Virus record (IMG/VR): IMGVR_UViG_3300034374_006337
Span: 1-37,354 of that record
Strand: one strand, 5' to 3'
Origin: a virus
DNA length: 37,354 nucleotides
Below the pieces are notes generated by a model, which saw only the letters and a list, made by a program, of their open reading frames with translations, ran no database searches and was not told where the DNA came from. Both the position numbers and the translations under genes were made by a program. Within the stretch, counting starts at the first letter, position 1; each line of letters begins with the position of its first letter. Shown piece by piece: positions 18,279 to 35,424 of the stretch.

Positions 18279-18526
18279 AAATTCTTCTAGAACGTTTTCC
18301 ATATCGTTATGTTGAAATGGGAATCCTAGACAATGGGTTCCCAGACTATCGTATTCAAAAAGCAGATAGTTATACTAAACGTTATCGTGACATGTATCTT
18401 CTTGACAATCAGATGCAACTTCTGACATGTATAGAAGACTATGATTACACTCGTTGGCTTGACCCGGCCAGAGTCCCTTGTTATAGAAAGGATAGTGTCA
18501 AAAGTAGTCAGGATCTAAATACATAA
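18275..18526 (+). CDS. small conserved cyanophage protein
   Basis: 83 residues, Tyr- and Asp-rich (YRYVEMGILDNGFPDYRIQKADSYTKRYRDMYLLDNQ), without a known domain. Starts within the stop of the previous gene, so both are probably made from the 18012 promoter. The C-terminus WLDPARVPCYRKDSVKSS is Arg/Lys-rich. Function unknown. Confidence 0.7.
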   Translation: MKILLERFPYRYVEMGILDNGFPDYRIQKADSYTKRYRDMYLLDNQMQLLTCIEDYDYTRWLDPARVPCYRKDSVKSSQDLNT

Positions 18527-18541
18527 AAGACCCCGACTACT

Positions 18542-18898
18542 ATGCCTTATAAGAGTGATCGTGACAAGAAGTATTATCACGAAAATCGTGACCGCTTCTT
18601 AAACAAACAGACAAAACAGCGACAGGAGAGGAAAGAGTTTCTTCTTGAAAATCTTGGTCACTCCTGTTCTGTCTGTGGTTCAACCGAGAAACTTGAGTTT
18701 GATCATATCAATCCATCCTTGAAAGAATCAAGACAATCTTTTCTCTCTATGGGTATTGAAACTATTAGATCTCAACTTGATAACATACAGGTTCTGTGTA
18801 AAGAGTGTCACAATAAGAAGAGTAACGCACAAAGAAAAGCAGCCTGGAAGTTATTTGTTGAACTCCCCCTTGAAGAGCAGGAAAGACTTATATCGTAA
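18542..18898 (+). CDS. free-standing HNH endonuclease
   Basis: 118 residues. A basic N-terminal helical region (KYYHENRDRFLNKQTKQRQERK) precedes the nuclease domain: C42-x2-C45, D54-H55 (FDHIN) and C86-x2-C89-H90 followed by NKKS. This zinc-stabilised HNH layout is common in phage homing nucleases. It is intact, unlike the HNH remnant ~700 bp upstream, and is not flanked by an intron. Probably a mobile free-standing nuclease or a resident nicking enzyme. Confidence 0.88.
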   Translation: MPYKSDRDKKYYHENRDRFLNKQTKQRQERKEFLLENLGHSCSVCGSTEKLEFDHINPSLKESRQSFLSMGIETIRSQLDNIQVLCKECHNKKSNAQRKAAWKLFVELPLEEQERLIS

Positions 18899-18910
18899 GC
18901 AGTTGTTGAT

Positions 18911-18918
18911 TATAAATA
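18911..18918 (+). promoter_or_regulatory. T4-type late promoter TATAAATA
   Basis: An exact match, 24 bp before ATG 18942. It lies inside GATTAT-AA-ATAATC (18908-18921), a perfect palindrome. Confidence 0.7.
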
Positions 18919-18941
18919 ATCGATAGTCAACAAGTGTAATT

Positions 18942-19190
18942 ATGGCAACCAGAAGAACATCAACAGGTGCATCATCTACATCATCTACATCATCTACATC
19001 ATCTACATACAAATCTGCCTTTGATAAAGAATGTGAGAAAAAGTTTGAAGAGATTGATGGTAGACTCGATGCATTAGAGTCAAAGTCACATACACCTTGT
19101 GGTGGTGGCAATAAGTCCGATTCTAAAGTAGAAGAAAGATTGGAAGCACTGATTTCTTTTCTTAAGAAAGAGCAGAATATTCCTCTCTGA
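18942..19190 (+). CDS. Ser/Thr-repeat and coiled-coil protein, late
   Basis: 82 residues. The N-terminus MATRRTSTGASS carries an SST repeat coded by four 9-bp tandem units (18971-19006). A helical coiled-coil region (FDKECEKKFEEIDGRLDALESK) and a second helix at the C-terminus follow. It has an exact late promoter, so it may be a virion or assembly protein. Similar short proteins with Thr/Ser-rich starts occur in cyanophages. Function unknown. Confidence 0.7.
   Translation: MATRRTSTGASSTSSTSSTSSTYKSAFDKECEKKFEEIDGRLDALESKSHTPCGGGNKSDSKVEERLEALISFLKKEQNIPL
18971..19006 (+). repeat. four tandem copies of ATCATCTAC
   Basis: An in-frame 9-bp repeat coding for SST in the N-terminus of the gene at 18942. 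Copy number could vary by replication slippage without shifting the frame. Confidence 0.9.
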
Positions 19191-19204: not shown

Positions 19205-19395
19205 AAAAAATATCCTGGTGGAGTCACCCCCCTAAAATGCCCGTGATGGAGACACGATAAAAACCCTGGTCGGTGAAGGATCCCCTTCAATCCCGAGAGT
19301 TTACAATTTCTCTTAAAAAATTGTTGGTGCGGATGGAGGAAACTCCCGCCCTGTTTCTTGCTTCAGGACAAAGAGCAAGTGGTGCGGCATGTATA
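19205..19395 (+). ncRNA. structured leader or small RNA before the sugar cluster
   Basis: No coding frame. A series of hairpins is visible: GGTG-GAGT-CACC (19217-19228); CGTG/CACG (19242-19256); GAAGG-ATCC-CCTTC within TCGG/CCGA (19270-19296); ACAATTT/AAATTGT (19303-19324); a GAAA-capped GGAG/CTCC within GCG/CGC (19329-19349); and CTTGCT/AGCAAG (19357-19379). GGTGCGG occurs twice (19326, 19381). The position upstream of a WcaG-type epimerase gene recalls the cyanophage wcaG RNA motif. I cannot confirm identity by eye. Confidence 0.6.
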
Positions 19396-28055: not shown

Positions 28056-28845
28056 AAATAAGGCTGTCTATAAGTTAAAAAACTTTGGTCCTGTTTATTG
28101 TATCAATTTGGATGATGCAGAGGATAGGTGGAATTGGATGGAAGACCAGTTTAAATACTGGGAAGTCGATAACTACACACGTATTGCAGCATACGATGGA
28201 CGTGAGGATGATCTTGGATCTATCCTAAAAGGAAAGTATCCTGACATGATGTCATCACGAGAGATTGGATGTACAACCTCACACCTAAAAGCACTGAAGC
28301 ATTACTTAGACACATCTGATTCTCCATATGCAATTATTATGGAAGATGATTGTGATCTTTCTGTTGCTAAGTATTGGAACTTCACATGGTCTGAAATCTA
28401 TGGGCATTTCCCATATGACTGGGATGTAGTACAACTTGCAATTATTTGTACGGGTGATCTTCACGTTAAACTTCACAAGAGATTTGTGAATGACTTTTCA
28501 ACTGCTTGTTATGCAATTTCTAGGTATCATGCAGAGAAACTCGTAAGGTTGCATTGTAGAGGAAACTATTATAAGATTGATCAGGGTGTCAAACCAAGAC
28601 CAGTAGCAGATGATTTGGTTTACAACTCTGGTAATACCTTTGCGATTCCTCTTCTCCTTTACAAAGTTGAGTTTCCTTCTGCAATTCACCAAGATCATGT
28701 TCACATTTTCCACAAACAAAGTCATGATGGACTCTGGCATTTCTGGGAACAGAATGGAGCACGATTATCTGCTTCAGATATTATGAATTATGATCCATAT
28801 CTTGGTCGCGTGACAGAAGGATCAAAACCAGTTGACAAAACTTAA
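28048..28845 (+). CDS. family 25 (LPS biosynthesis) glycosyltransferase
   Basis: 265 residues from ATG 28048, with GGGAG 28033 upstream. An in-frame TTG at 28042 is less likely. YCINLDDAEDRWNWM (17-31) and EIGCTTSHLKAL are GT25 signatures, with an acidic EDD triad (99-101) and a long C-terminal half. It likely extends the glycan outside the core. Overlaps the fucosyltransferase by 8 bp. The hli promoter begins inside its 3' end. Confidence 0.83.
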   Translation: MDRNKAVYKLKNFGPVYCINLDDAEDRWNWMEDQFKYWEVDNYTRIAAYDGREDDLGSILKGKYPDMMSSREIGCTTSHLKALKHYLDTSDSPYAIIMEDDCDLSVAKYWNFTWSEIYGHFPYDWDVVQLAIICTGDLHVKLHKRFVNDFSTACYAISRYHAEKLVRLHCRGNYYKIDQGVKPRPVADDLVYNSGNTFAIPLLLYKVEFPSAIHQDHVHIFHKQSHDGLWHFWEQNGARLSASDIMNYDPYLGRVTEGSKPVDKT

Positions 28846-28860
28846 TGTTTACTATATAAT
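28832..28860 (+). promoter_or_regulatory. perfect sigma70 promoter TTGACA-N17-TATAAT
   Basis: Exact consensus with 17-bp spacing, overlapping the end of the GT25 gene and 26 bp before the hli ATG. It separates the light/electron-transport block from the sugar cluster. Confidence 0.88.
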
Positions 28861-28886: not shown

Positions 28887-29096
28887 ATGACTGTTACTAC
28901 TGAAGACGGTGGACGCCAAAACATGTTTGCCAGTGAACCACAAATGTATATCTCTAAGACCGACGCAGAGCGTTACGGTTATGAGACATATGCAGAACGT
29001 GCAGAAAAAATGAATGGTCGCTTCGCAATGATGGGAATTATTGCTGGGTTTCTTTCATATGCAATCACAGGCAAATTCTTTTTTGGACTTGTATGA
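28887..29096 (+). CDS. hli: high-light-inducible protein
   Basis: 69 residues. ERAEKMNGRFAMMG (37-50) is the chlorophyll-binding-protein motif (ExxxRxNGRxAM), followed by one membrane helix ([19 protein letters not shown]). Hlips bind pigments and protect photosystem II during infection under high light. Behind a perfect sigma70 promoter. The stop overlaps the next ATG (ATGA). Confidence 0.95.
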   Translation: MTVTTEDGGRQNMFASEPQMYISKTDAERYGYETYAERAEKMNGRFAMMGIIAGFLSYAITGKFFFGLV

Positions 29097-29197
29097 CTAG
29101 TTACTTGACAATTGGACATTTTATCTTTACAATAACGAGCATTGCCTTCCTTGTATTGTTGGCATACTCTGTAGAAAATTTATCTGAAACTTACTAA
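29093..29197 (+). CDS. 34-residue single-membrane-helix micro-protein
   Basis: [20 protein letters not shown]… with one hydrophobic helix ([18 protein letters not shown]) and an acidic tail. It begins at ATGA within the hli stop and ends at TAATG with the ferredoxin start, so translation could run continuously from hli to petF. It contains a sigma70-type promoter, which could instead mean the DNA is regulatory and the frame incidental. It recalls small photosystem subunits in size but has no specific match. Confidence 0.5.
29105..29133 (+). promoter_or_regulatory. sigma70-type promoter TTGACA-N17-TACAAT
   Basis: Perfect -35, one mismatch at -10, 17-bp spacer. Lies within the micro-ORF and 64 bp before the ferredoxin ATG. 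Confidence 0.5.
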
Positions 29198-29490
29198 TGG
29201 AATTTAATGTTACTTTTCGTGCTCCTGACGGCACAGAAACAAATGTAACCTGTCAAGATGATCAGTATCTTCTTGATGCTGCTGAAGAGGGTGGTCTGGA
29301 TCTAAATTATTCTTGTCGTGCAGGTGCTTGTTCATCTTGTGCAAGCAAGATCGTATCCGGCACAGTTGATCAAAGCGATCAATCTTTCTTGGATGATGAT
29401 CAGATTGAAGAGGGGTTTGTTCTTACATGTGTAGCATATCCAACTTCTGATATTGTAATTGAAACCGAACAAGAGGAAAATCTTTACTGA
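29197..29490 (+). CDS. petF: plant-type [2Fe-2S] ferredoxin
   Basis: 97 residues with C40, C45, C48 (CRAGACSSC) and C78, the four ligands of a plant/cyanobacterial-type [2Fe-2S] cluster. Acidic overall, as needed for docking to redox partners. Phage ferredoxins may feed phage or host reductive enzymes during infection. Same strand as and coupled with hli. Overlaps the next gene by 1 bp (TGATG). Confidence 0.95.
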
Positions 29491-29831
29491 TGCACGGAAA
29501 TCTTGAACCTGAAGATCGAGTATTGAGCACTTCATCTGTTTATGAAATGATCTCTTCTCTTATCCAAAAATATGAGTGGGAAGATGGTGATGATATCGTG
29601 GTTGAATCAGCAGGTGTTTCAATCTCTGGCATTGATGTTGGTGAGAACTACAATAAAAAGTGGCAATCACCAATTGGAACTCGTAAGTATAATAAGGATG
29701 CTTTCATTGTTATTAAAAACCTTTCGAAAAATCCATTTGAACCTTCTAAACCTATGGGTGACGAATTCAATCCTAAGCATACCTACGAACCAGTTAGCAA
29801 ACGCAATGCCGAATCCCAATCAACTTTATGA
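29490..29831 (+). CDS. conserved cyanophage protein
   Basis: 113 residues, acidic (DGDDIVVESAGVSISGID) with a basic middle and a Pro-containing tail (SKNPFEPSKPMGDEFNPKHTY). No membrane span or known domain. Coupled to ferredoxin by TGATG and overlapping the next gene by 26 bp. Function unknown. Confidence 0.7.
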   Translation: MHGNLEPEDRVLSTSSVYEMISSLIQKYEWEDGDDIVVESAGVSISGIDVGENYNKKWQSPIGTRKYNKDAFIVIKNLSKNPFEPSKPMGDEFNPKHTYEPVSKRNAESQSTL

Positions 29832-29976
29832 AGATATGAAAAGACTTAATTCATTATATGAGGAACTCTGTTGGGACCATGATGATGAATTAGTCTTTAC
29901 TCACGAAAACAACAAAGTCATTATTTACAATAAAACACAGGAGAAAAACAATGAACGAAAACGCAGAACGTATTAA
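29806..29976 (+). CDS. small conserved cyanophage protein
   Basis: 56 residues from ATG 29806. The frame is open far upstream, but that part is antiphase to the preceding gene. Sequence MPNPNQLYEDMKRLNSLYEELCWDHDDELVFTHENNKVIIYN forms a helix plus beta hairpin, with a basic tail (KNNERKRRTY). It overlaps the short hli gene by 26 bp. Function unknown. Confidence 0.65.
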   Translation: MPNPNQLYEDMKRLNSLYEELCWDHDDELVFTHENNKVIIYNKTQEKNNERKRRTY

Positions 29977-30058
29977 TGGTTGGGCAGCAATGCTCGGAAT
30001 CGTAGCAGCAATGGGTGCATATGCCCTTACTGGCGACCTGATCCCTGGAATTTGGTAG
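29951..30058 (+). CDS. hli: short high-light-inducible protein
   Basis: 35 residues: ENAERINGWAAMLGIVAAMG carries the ExxxRxNGxxAMLG chlorophyll-binding helix, and the protein ends LIPGIW. AGGAG lies 7 bp before the ATG. Typical short cyanophage Hlip. A second copy of the C-terminus (IIPGIW) is found 490 bp downstream after an HNH gene, evidence that the gene's 3' end was rebuilt when the HNH element inserted. Confidence 0.92.
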   Translation: MNENAERINGWAAMLGIVAAMGAYALTGDLIPGIW

Positions 30059-30062
30059 ATTT

Positions 30063-30110
30063 ATTACGCAACTACTTATTTTTATAAATAATTAAAAGTA
30101 GTTGCGTAAT
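30063..30110. repeat. 15-bp perfect inverted repeat around a late promoter
   Basis: ATTACGCAACTACTT (30063-30077) pairs with AAGTAGTTGCGTAAT (30096-30110) across 18 nt. The right arm ends 3 bp before the HNH start codon, so read-through RNA would fold over the ribosome-binding region. RNA started at the internal late promoter would lack the left arm. Confidence 0.85.
30083..30090 (+). promoter_or_regulatory. T4-type late promoter TATAAATA
   Basis: Exact match in the loop of the 15-bp inverted repeat, 24 bp before the HNH ATG at 30114. Confidence 0.75.
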
Positions 30111-30113
30111 ACT

Positions 30114-30533
30114 ATGTCTGGTAAAGGAAATCCAAAAGGAAATATTCCTTGGAATGCTGGAAGAAAAGGAACATACAAAAATGCTGAATATCATATTAAA
30201 CCTAATGGTGAAGTATGGTCAATCAGGAAAAAGAGATGTTCTTTACTTGAAGGATGGATAACACAAAAAGGTTATCGTTCTTACAGCATAAATGGAAAGA
30301 CAATTGAAGGACATAGATTAGTTGCTAAAAAGTATCTGCCAAATCCTGACAATAAAGAACAAGTAGATCACATCAATAGGGTTAGACACGATAATAGAGT
30401 GGAAAATCTTAGATGGGCTACAAGACAACAAAATTGTGAGAATAGAATATTTGGTGGAACTGAGCAACAAGCAATAGAATATTTACAAAGTTTAGGTTAC
30501 ACAATTACAAAGGAGAAACAAAATGAAAAATAA
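30114..30533 (+). CDS. HNH homing endonuclease inserted at the hli 3' end
   Basis: 139 residues. Upstream in-frame starts at 30102 overlap the inverted repeat and are rejected. A NUMOD-like segment (YHIKPNGEVWSIRKKR…GYRSYSINGKTIEGHRLVAKKYLPNP) precedes the HNH core: D85-H86 (VDHINR), N94 (DNRVENLRW). This fits HNH_3-type free-standing homing nucleases. It lies between the short hli and a duplicated hli tail, the placement expected for a nuclease that cut near the hli 3' end. Late expression is implied by the promoter. Confidence 0.88.
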   Translation: MSGKGNPKGNIPWNAGRKGTYKNAEYHIKPNGEVWSIRKKRCSLLEGWITQKGYRSYSINGKTIEGHRLVAKKYLPNPDNKEQVDHINRVRHDNRVENLRWATRQQNCENRIFGGTEQQAIEYLQSLGYTITKEKQNEK

Positions 30534-30555
30534 AATAATTCCCGGCATCTGGTGA
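30523..30555 (+). pseudogene. displaced second copy of the Hli C-terminus
   Basis: ATG AAA AAT AAA then IIPGIW and stop, matching LIPGIW at the end of the short hli, with different synonymous codons. AAGGAG lies upstream. Its stop overlaps the next ATG (TGATG), which suggests the original hli ended here before HNH insertion. Confidence 0.6.
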
Positions 30556-30695
30556 TGACAACCGAAACAATCCTACAGATTTTTTCGGTTATCGTAGTGG
30601 TGGGAGTTGTCTTTTGGTTATTGGATGACCCCCACGATGATGACGATACGCCAGACAAAGGCATGATGATTCCAGCATATCAGAGGGGCAATTAG
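30555..30695 (+). CDS. 46-residue single-membrane protein
   Basis: MTTETILQIFSVIVVVGVVF followed by an Asp-rich stretch (DDPHDDDDTPD) and MIPAYQRGN. A single N-terminal membrane helix with an acidic cytoplasmic or periplasmic tail. Similar small proteins are conserved in T4-like cyanophages near hli. Coupled to the preceding frame by TGATG. Function unknown. Confidence 0.7.
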   Translation: MTTETILQIFSVIVVVGVVFWLLDDPHDDDDTPDKGMMIPAYQRGN

Positions 30696-30707
30696 TCTCT
30701 CTTTTTT

Positions 30708-35259: not shown

Positions 35260-35302
35260 CATCAACTGATTAAGAAATGTAAACTTTTTTAATCTTTTGC
35301 AA

Positions 35303-35346
35303 ACACGCCTTACCGAGACTAAACAGCGTGTGAAAATAAGAGTCTC
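35303..35346 (+). promoter_or_regulatory. H-type pseudoknot in the psbA leader
   Basis: ACACGC (35303-35308) pairs with GCGTGT (35326-35331). GAGACT (35315-35320), inside that loop, pairs with AGTCTC (35341-35346). Position in a psbA 5' UTR recalls the PhotoRC RNA motifs, but identity is not confirmed. Confidence 0.6.
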
Positions 35347-35351
35347 TCATA

Positions 35352-35379
35352 CCCTACCCGACAGGGCGGTAGGGCATAT
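35352..35379 (+). terminator. GC-rich hairpin plus T-tract before psbA
   Basis: CCCTACC (35352-35358) pairs with GGTAGGG (35368-35374), followed by CATATTTTT. It may be a weak terminator or attenuator, or part of the leader fold with the pseudoknot. CCC-GACA-GGG is a shorter alternative. Confidence 0.5.
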
Positions 35380-35424
35380 TTTTCTCGCACATCCCTGTGG
35401 TGCTCTACTTACAAAGCATCTAAA

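Follow-up and report, generated by a model that had tools for sequence, protein, structure and literature searches.

The window (the whole stretch of DNA that was analysed, 37,354 nucleotides) belongs to a marine cyanophage that carries a mobile nuclease gene behind hli. The surroundings of this gene contain the following features, all on the plus strand:

28832..28860, +, sigma-70 (early-type) promoter TTGACA-17-TATAAT of the hli-petF-hli operon, with 12 of 12 consensus matches
28887..29096, +, hli gene 1 (high light inducible protein), heading the operon (PHROG 178, E 4.5e-32)
29197..29490, +, petF-like 2Fe-2S ferredoxin gene (PHROG 844, E 1.4e-47)
29490..29831, +, gene of unknown function (phrog_475, E 1.8e-34)
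29951..30058, +, hli gene 2, ending in ...LIPGIW-stop, with the HNH cassette directly behind it (PHROG 178, E 2.4e-18)
30114..30533, +, gene for an HNH_3 homing-type endonuclease of 139 amino acids (PF13392, E 4.6e-12; phrog_59, E 7e-24)
30510..30516, +, Shine-Dalgarno-like AAGGAGA within the HNH gene, at its 3' end, in a position suited to the gene that follows the insertion, and found at the same position in the homologous locus L006
30523..30555, +, leftover hli 3' end, MKNKIIPGIW-stop, behind the HNH gene
30682..30702, +, first intrinsic-terminator-like site downstream

The HNH domain scores 45.8 bits against PF13392, for which the cut-off is 24.8, and the nearest solved structure is that of an HNH homing endonuclease, 1u3e chain M (E 1.7e-10; profile 24-118 matched). 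We take this protein to be I-HmuI, which differs from the window protein in being intron-encoded, in a Bacillus phage. A scan from the early promoter at 28832 to the HNH gene found no terminator-like site, the first one being that at 30682, and in combination with the perfect sigma-70 promoter this leads us to expect early read-through into the HNH gene. A sigma-70 promoter with 12 of 12 matches likewise lies upstream of the cassette in the loci L006, L009 and L044. The second hli 3' end at 30523-30555 is, from its sequence, likely a trace of insertion by recombination in hli. An open reading frame of a group I intron was considered and rejected, since the Rfam scan of the window detected no intron family and hli is intact. 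The arms of the repeat described below were also rejected as terminal inverted repeats of a transposon, because both lie at one end of the cassette. A search for the 26-nt sequence formed by left arm and promoter box gave no further copy with two mismatches or fewer. Elsewhere in the window, Rfam matches were obtained for PhotoRC-II (35290-35387, 50.9 bits) and wcaG RNA (19295-19393, 81.9 bits).

The inverted repeat and the initiation region

Between the second hli gene and the nuclease gene lies an inverted repeat of 16 perfect pairs, with 18 nt in its loop:

30062..30077, +, left arm TATTACGCAACTACTT, predicted only in read-through RNA, covarying with the right arm in L006, L009 and L010
30083..30090, +, T4-type late promoter box TATAAATA, located in the loop and invariant in L006, L009 and L010
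30096..30111, +, right arm AAGTAGTTGCGTAATA, of which the first base is the predicted late start (box start +13)

The stretch 30062-30111 reads TATTACGCAACTACTT-ATTTTTATAAATAATTAA-AAGTAGTTGCGTAATA with CT and then the ATG (30114) behind it; extension of the repeat into the loop lengthens the arm to 24 nt, at 88% match. The preliminary description had given a 15-bp repeat around a late promoter, with its right arm close to the ATG. The repeat is real, with 16 perfect pairs instead of 15, the box indeed sits in its loop, and the right arm adjoins the start codon with two bases in between. No perfect inverted repeat of the window with a loop of 60 nt or less is longer, the runner-up measuring 11 bp, and in ten Markov-resampled windows the longest was 12 bp at most. 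The repeat RNA folds at -20.6 kcal/mol (z = -6.7), a value that none of 200 shuffles equalled, so that read-through RNA is predicted to form a stable hairpin. None of 2000 controls, in which the flanks were resampled around an unchanged box, came up to the helix of the window. The Rfam scan gave no known RNA family at the repeat.

In T4, the late promoter box is spaced at -13 to -6 from the start. By this rule late transcription in the window would begin with the first base of the right arm (30096), and the late RNA would lose the entire left arm by the placement of its promoter. The existence of a T4-type late promoter is suggested by the agreement of TATAAATA, upstream of the gene, with the cyanophage late promoter consensus NATAAATA (PMC2984593), and by the annotation of gp55, gp33 and gp45 in the relative S-SKS1.

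As a measure of accessibility we used the energy required to open positions -20 to +13 in read-through and in late RNA. The calculated cost is 23.4 kcal/mol for the read-through RNA of the window versus 3.9 kcal/mol for the late RNA. It decreases from 21.6 to 4.0 kcal/mol in L006, from 23.3 to 3.9 in L009, from 23.3 to 4.9 in L010, from 17.4 to 3.1 in L051 and from 20.7 to 6.9 in L044; a drop is found in every family, the smallest being that of L046 (8.8 to 3.9 kcal/mol). The earlier proposal of a hidden ribosome-binding region thus agrees with the calculation as far as closure of the landing region is concerned, but the late leader AAGTAGTTGCGTAATACT of the window contains no Shine-Dalgarno sequence (duplex -0.7 kcal/mol) and the AUG is left unpaired, two bases outside the stem, which makes the strength of repression uncertain. 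In L044 and L051, AGG is present within the right arm.

We consider it likely that the repeat is a timing switch of the mobile HNH cassette behind hli, by which the gene is silent on early RNA and translated late. Early RNA from the sigma-70 promoter at 28832 would read through the hli-petF operon and hold both arms, which would close into a 16-bp hairpin spanning -52 to -3 relative to the HNH start and keep the ribosome away. Late in infection, the phage late sigma factor would use TATAAATA at 30083, and the RNA starting at about 30096, carrying the right arm only, would stay open and be translated, so that the nuclease would be made only late. The structural effect in this scheme is a calculated one, and the late start site, the read-through and the difference in translation are what we infer from the arrangement of promoters and arms.

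Homologous cassettes and alternative explanations

Close homologues of the cassette were found at 11 IMG/VR loci, each directly behind an hli stop codon. In L006-L008, L009 and L010, where HNH proteins that are 72-87% identical are preceded by altered arm sequences, pairing is exact and the changes in one arm are matched on the opposite arm (CG to UA; CG to UA or AU; GC to CG). The alignment of the window with L006, L009 and L010 consists of four distinct rows and hence records few events, but each event is compensated: 64 of 64 pair cells are kept, changes on both sides occur at three pairs (four cells), and one-sided changes are absent. When the partner is slid by 1-3 columns, pairing falls to 23-55%.

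Altogether, 13 distinct HNH_3 cassettes lie directly behind an hli stop codon, all with a late-type box. The predicted start cuts a stem in 11 of them, whereas random flanks gave an equal cut helix in at most 2% of trials. The two exceptions, L052 and S-CAM7, have compact hairpins starting at the box, of which the cut part is no better than random. Stems of other families are as follows:

L051 and L055, AAGACCTGTTATTA/TAATAACAGGTCTT-ATG, 14-15 bp
L046-L049, TTACCAAATA/TATTTGGTAA, 10 bp (L046/L048)
L011, ATTTACCAAATATTTG/TAGGTATTTGGTAAAT, 15 cut pairs
L044, TACTAAATACCTGTA/TACAGGTGTTTGGTA(TG), 14 cut pairs, two of them G-U
L235, ATACCTGTAT/ATACAGGTAT

In all of these the predicted late start removes all or most of the left arm. 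The stem sequences are unrelated between the families, while the nucleases are related, and of the ten cassettes that have a strict NATAAATA box, nine place it 30-31 nt from the ATG.

The hairpin of S-CAM7 (L033, 1458-1497) is terminator-like, with a T run abutting the nuclease ATG and a late-type box overlapping its left side. A similar hairpin with a U run is located by the ATG of an EndoVII gene of RB11-B (record position 28690, minus strand), where the late start also cuts the left arm. The sequence of the S-CAM7 hairpin with its T run suggests a terminator version, and both hairpins are possibly a transcriptional form of the switch. By analogy, the window hairpin could be a terminator or attenuator that halts early read-through before the nuclease gene and from which late RNA, without the left arm, escapes. 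Behind the right arm in the window, however, comes CTATGTC, which is not a T run, and no site was reported at the repeat by the terminator scan. An intrinsic terminator at this position was rejected, as the U run after the stem is absent, and we regard the explanation by termination as highly improbable.

Cassettes of this type are also gained and lost. In S-SKS1 the site is empty: hli ends with GGAGTATGGTAA and the next gene begins one base later. In L006 the cassette occupies exactly this point, and AAAGGAG, close to the stop codon of the HNH gene, now stands before the next gene. With the cassette present in L002-L012 and the site empty in S-SKS1, there is an insertion polymorphism, and the nuclease of the window presumably homes. 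In the L013 group, consisting of seven contigs that are identical in this region, all that is left of the HNH gene is ATG GAG AAA TAA. These contigs have kept the right arm and the late box, and only the left arm is mutated, with two substitutions that leave 10 contiguous pairs. Although it concerns a single lineage, this decay is the behaviour that would be expected of a stem needed only for the nuclease.

It was also observed that TTATTACGCAAC, at the left arm (window 30061-30073), resembles GTTATTAGCAACC, the start of the gene beside the empty hli site of S-SKS1 (L028); this likeness may be due to chance or to an operator resembling a homing site. The possibility of an operator deserves attention since I-TevI is known to repress its own synthesis through an operator that overlaps its late promoter (PMC2988022). 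The palindrome in the window, with the late box between its arms and with the resemblance just mentioned, could similarly be a DNA site to which the nuclease or another dimeric protein binds, thereby repressing transcription. Yet the arms vary among the close homologues with pairing kept exact, and related nucleases are preceded by unrelated stems, which favours pairing over a fixed site. An operator as the explanation of the repeat is thus unlikely, even though an operator and an RNA hairpin could act together.

Palindromes can self-correct during replication, by which paired changes arise as well. The compensated changes are in that respect also compatible with a functionless repeat, due to chance or to mutation, of which the symmetry is kept by template switching. 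We consider such a by-product extremely improbable, because it does not account for the fixed geometry around box and ATG, which in most families lie 30-31 nt apart, for the reappearance of the plan with unrelated stems or for the decay after loss of the reading frame.

A second, shorter case is present in the window itself:

18503..18541, +, AGTAGTC/GACTACT around TCTAAATA, directly before the ATG of an HNH-like ORF (18542-18898)

This hairpin has a fold of -12.8 kcal/mol (z -3.5). Just past the HNH-like ORF, TATAAATA occurs at 18911 within another inverted repeat, TTGTTGA...TCAACAA (18900-18942), before an ORF at 18942.

Comparison with known systems

The T4 genes for I-TevI, I-TevII and I-TevIII have a late or middle promoter placed such that a hairpin forms only on the longer RNA. 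They differ from the window gene in being intron-encoded and in having a consensus Shine-Dalgarno sequence at about 8 nt from the AUG, within the stem; the delay of translation in T4 also serves to protect splicing, a role without equivalent in the window, where there is no intron. A switch of this T4 intron type had been proposed in the preliminary description, and it is supported by the compensating changes, by the unrelated stems with the same plan and by the decay of the stem upon loss of the HNH gene, as well as by the early promoter without a terminator and by the calculated loss of structure in RNA from 30096. Its occurrence on a free-standing nuclease, which had been put forward as the new element, is not new: it was shown earlier for mobE of Aeromonas phage Aeh1, and T4 segB had been implicated (PMC2988022, PMC3014915).

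The case of mobE (Gibb and Edgell, as cited in PMC2988022 and PMC3014915) is, according to these two reviews, that of a free-standing HNH homing endonuclease gene with a late promoter held in a hairpin, of which the ribosome binding site region is sequestered only in RNA initiated upstream. As described there, mobE lies within a ribonucleotide reductase gene of its Aeromonas phage, with its ribosome binding site in the stem, whereas the window gene, of the HNH_3 type, is a cyanophage gene located behind hli and lacks a Shine-Dalgarno sequence. The same promoter-in-hairpin logic is found with T4 segB and with the T4 genes e, soc and 49, which are not intron genes either, but these are GIY-YIG or non-homing genes with unrelated sequences (PMC2988022, PMC3014915). 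The mechanism was thus already known, as was its use on a free-standing HNH gene (mobE), and the window case, with no Shine-Dalgarno sequence and with its AUG just outside the stem, is a variant that would act like the T4 cases and not a strict member of that group.

Among cyanophages, F-CphI of S-PM2 is also a free-standing homing endonuclease adjoining a photosynthesis gene, but it is of the Endo VII type and targets a psbA intron site; a hairpin-buried promoter was not found in the accessible text of the sources (PMC6083498, PMC5931967). No report of hairpin-timed cyanophage nucleases was found in the open-access collection searched, in which most subscription papers are missing. The window case would extend a regulatory trick of T4 to marine cyanophages, on cassettes that insert behind a photosynthesis-related gene. 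The stems share a plan but not a sequence, which suggests that what is required is that the nuclease be expressed late, and not that intron splicing be protected.

Late nuclease genes of cultured cyanophages

The genomes of ten cultured cyanophages were scanned for every NATAAATA box with an ORF of at least 60 codons within 50 nt, which yielded 264 ORFs. These were scored by the helix that is destroyed by the late start, and the top class comprised 16 ORFs. Nuclease-like genes made up 12 of these 16 as compared to 13 of the other 248 (Fisher p = 4e-11), a result to which S-SRM01 contributes nine of the 12 cases, several with related leaders, and which is biased toward enrichment in that some nucleases were identified with seeds from the top hits. 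The nuclease-like genes of the top class are:

Endo VII-like: S-SRM01 126172, 142306 and 48536; S-SKS1 23326
GIY-YIG-like (sequence motif plus PHROG 314 or 15526): S-SRM01 77663, 18053, 51348, 56059 and 62515
HNH-like: S-SRM01 192520; S-SKS1 58148; RB11-B 171744

Leaving out S-SRM01 gives three of seven versus six of 203 (p = 0.002), and if 25 nucleases are assumed among the other 248 ORFs the enrichment has p = 1e-8. If only Pfam-defined nucleases are counted, the Fisher p is between 0.002 and 0.04, according to the upstream span and the box pattern chosen. There is no general shift of late nuclease genes toward hairpins, as the medians equal those of other genes and only the tail is enriched; most nucleases with a late box have no long hairpin. 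Late boxes as such are common in front of nucleases, NATAAATA or a near variant lying within 50 nt upstream of 19 of 22, though the variant pattern also precedes many other ORFs.

The enrichment on late nuclease genes bears on yet another explanation, by which the stem is an RNA stabiliser or a site of processing by RNase and does not serve to cover the start region. A 16-bp stem could be a substrate of RNase III or protect a 5' end, and a role of this kind was proposed for a 36-bp inverted repeat in the 5' UTR of psbA of S-PM2d (PMC5931967). Neither this enrichment nor the presence of the late box within the stem, by which late RNA would lose one arm, is explained in this way, and we find a role in stability or processing very unlikely.

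On balance we lean slightly towards the view that promoter-in-hairpin timing is a general and repeatedly evolved trait of cyanophage homing-type nucleases (HNH_3, HNH/NUMOD3, Endo VII-like and GIY-YIG), a regulatory module that each cassette takes along; other forms of it would be terminators that lose their 5' arm to the late start, and leaders with an interleaved, pseudoknot-like structure. In the leader of the RB11-B HNH_3 gene at 169042 (minus strand), a 14-pair stem of GTGTGTCTTGGCGG with TCGCCAAGACACAC ends at the ATG, has TCTAAATA in its loop and is interleaved with ATAATGTGGG/CCCACATTAT. In L184, upstream of this gene, the inverted repeats of 10 and 13-14 bp have the order A-B-A'-B', like a pseudoknot. 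A motif TGGGC..GTAAG.CCCA, resembling that of the 169042 leader, precedes RB11-B 171744 and S-SRM01 77663. At least six nuclease-like genes of S-SRM01 (L186, L188, L189, L195) have a common leader plan with differing stem sequences, in which a long-range stem surrounds an inner hairpin, followed by TATAAATA and then by the right arm; Rfam searches of the S-SRM01 leaders, including that of 77663, gave only chance matches and no family.

As the strongest late-promoter hairpins in a blind scan mostly marked nuclease-like genes, the arrangement may also be used as a sequence signature for unannotated mobile nucleases. Some of the nuclease-like genes with strong hairpins are annotated as hypothetical proteins only.
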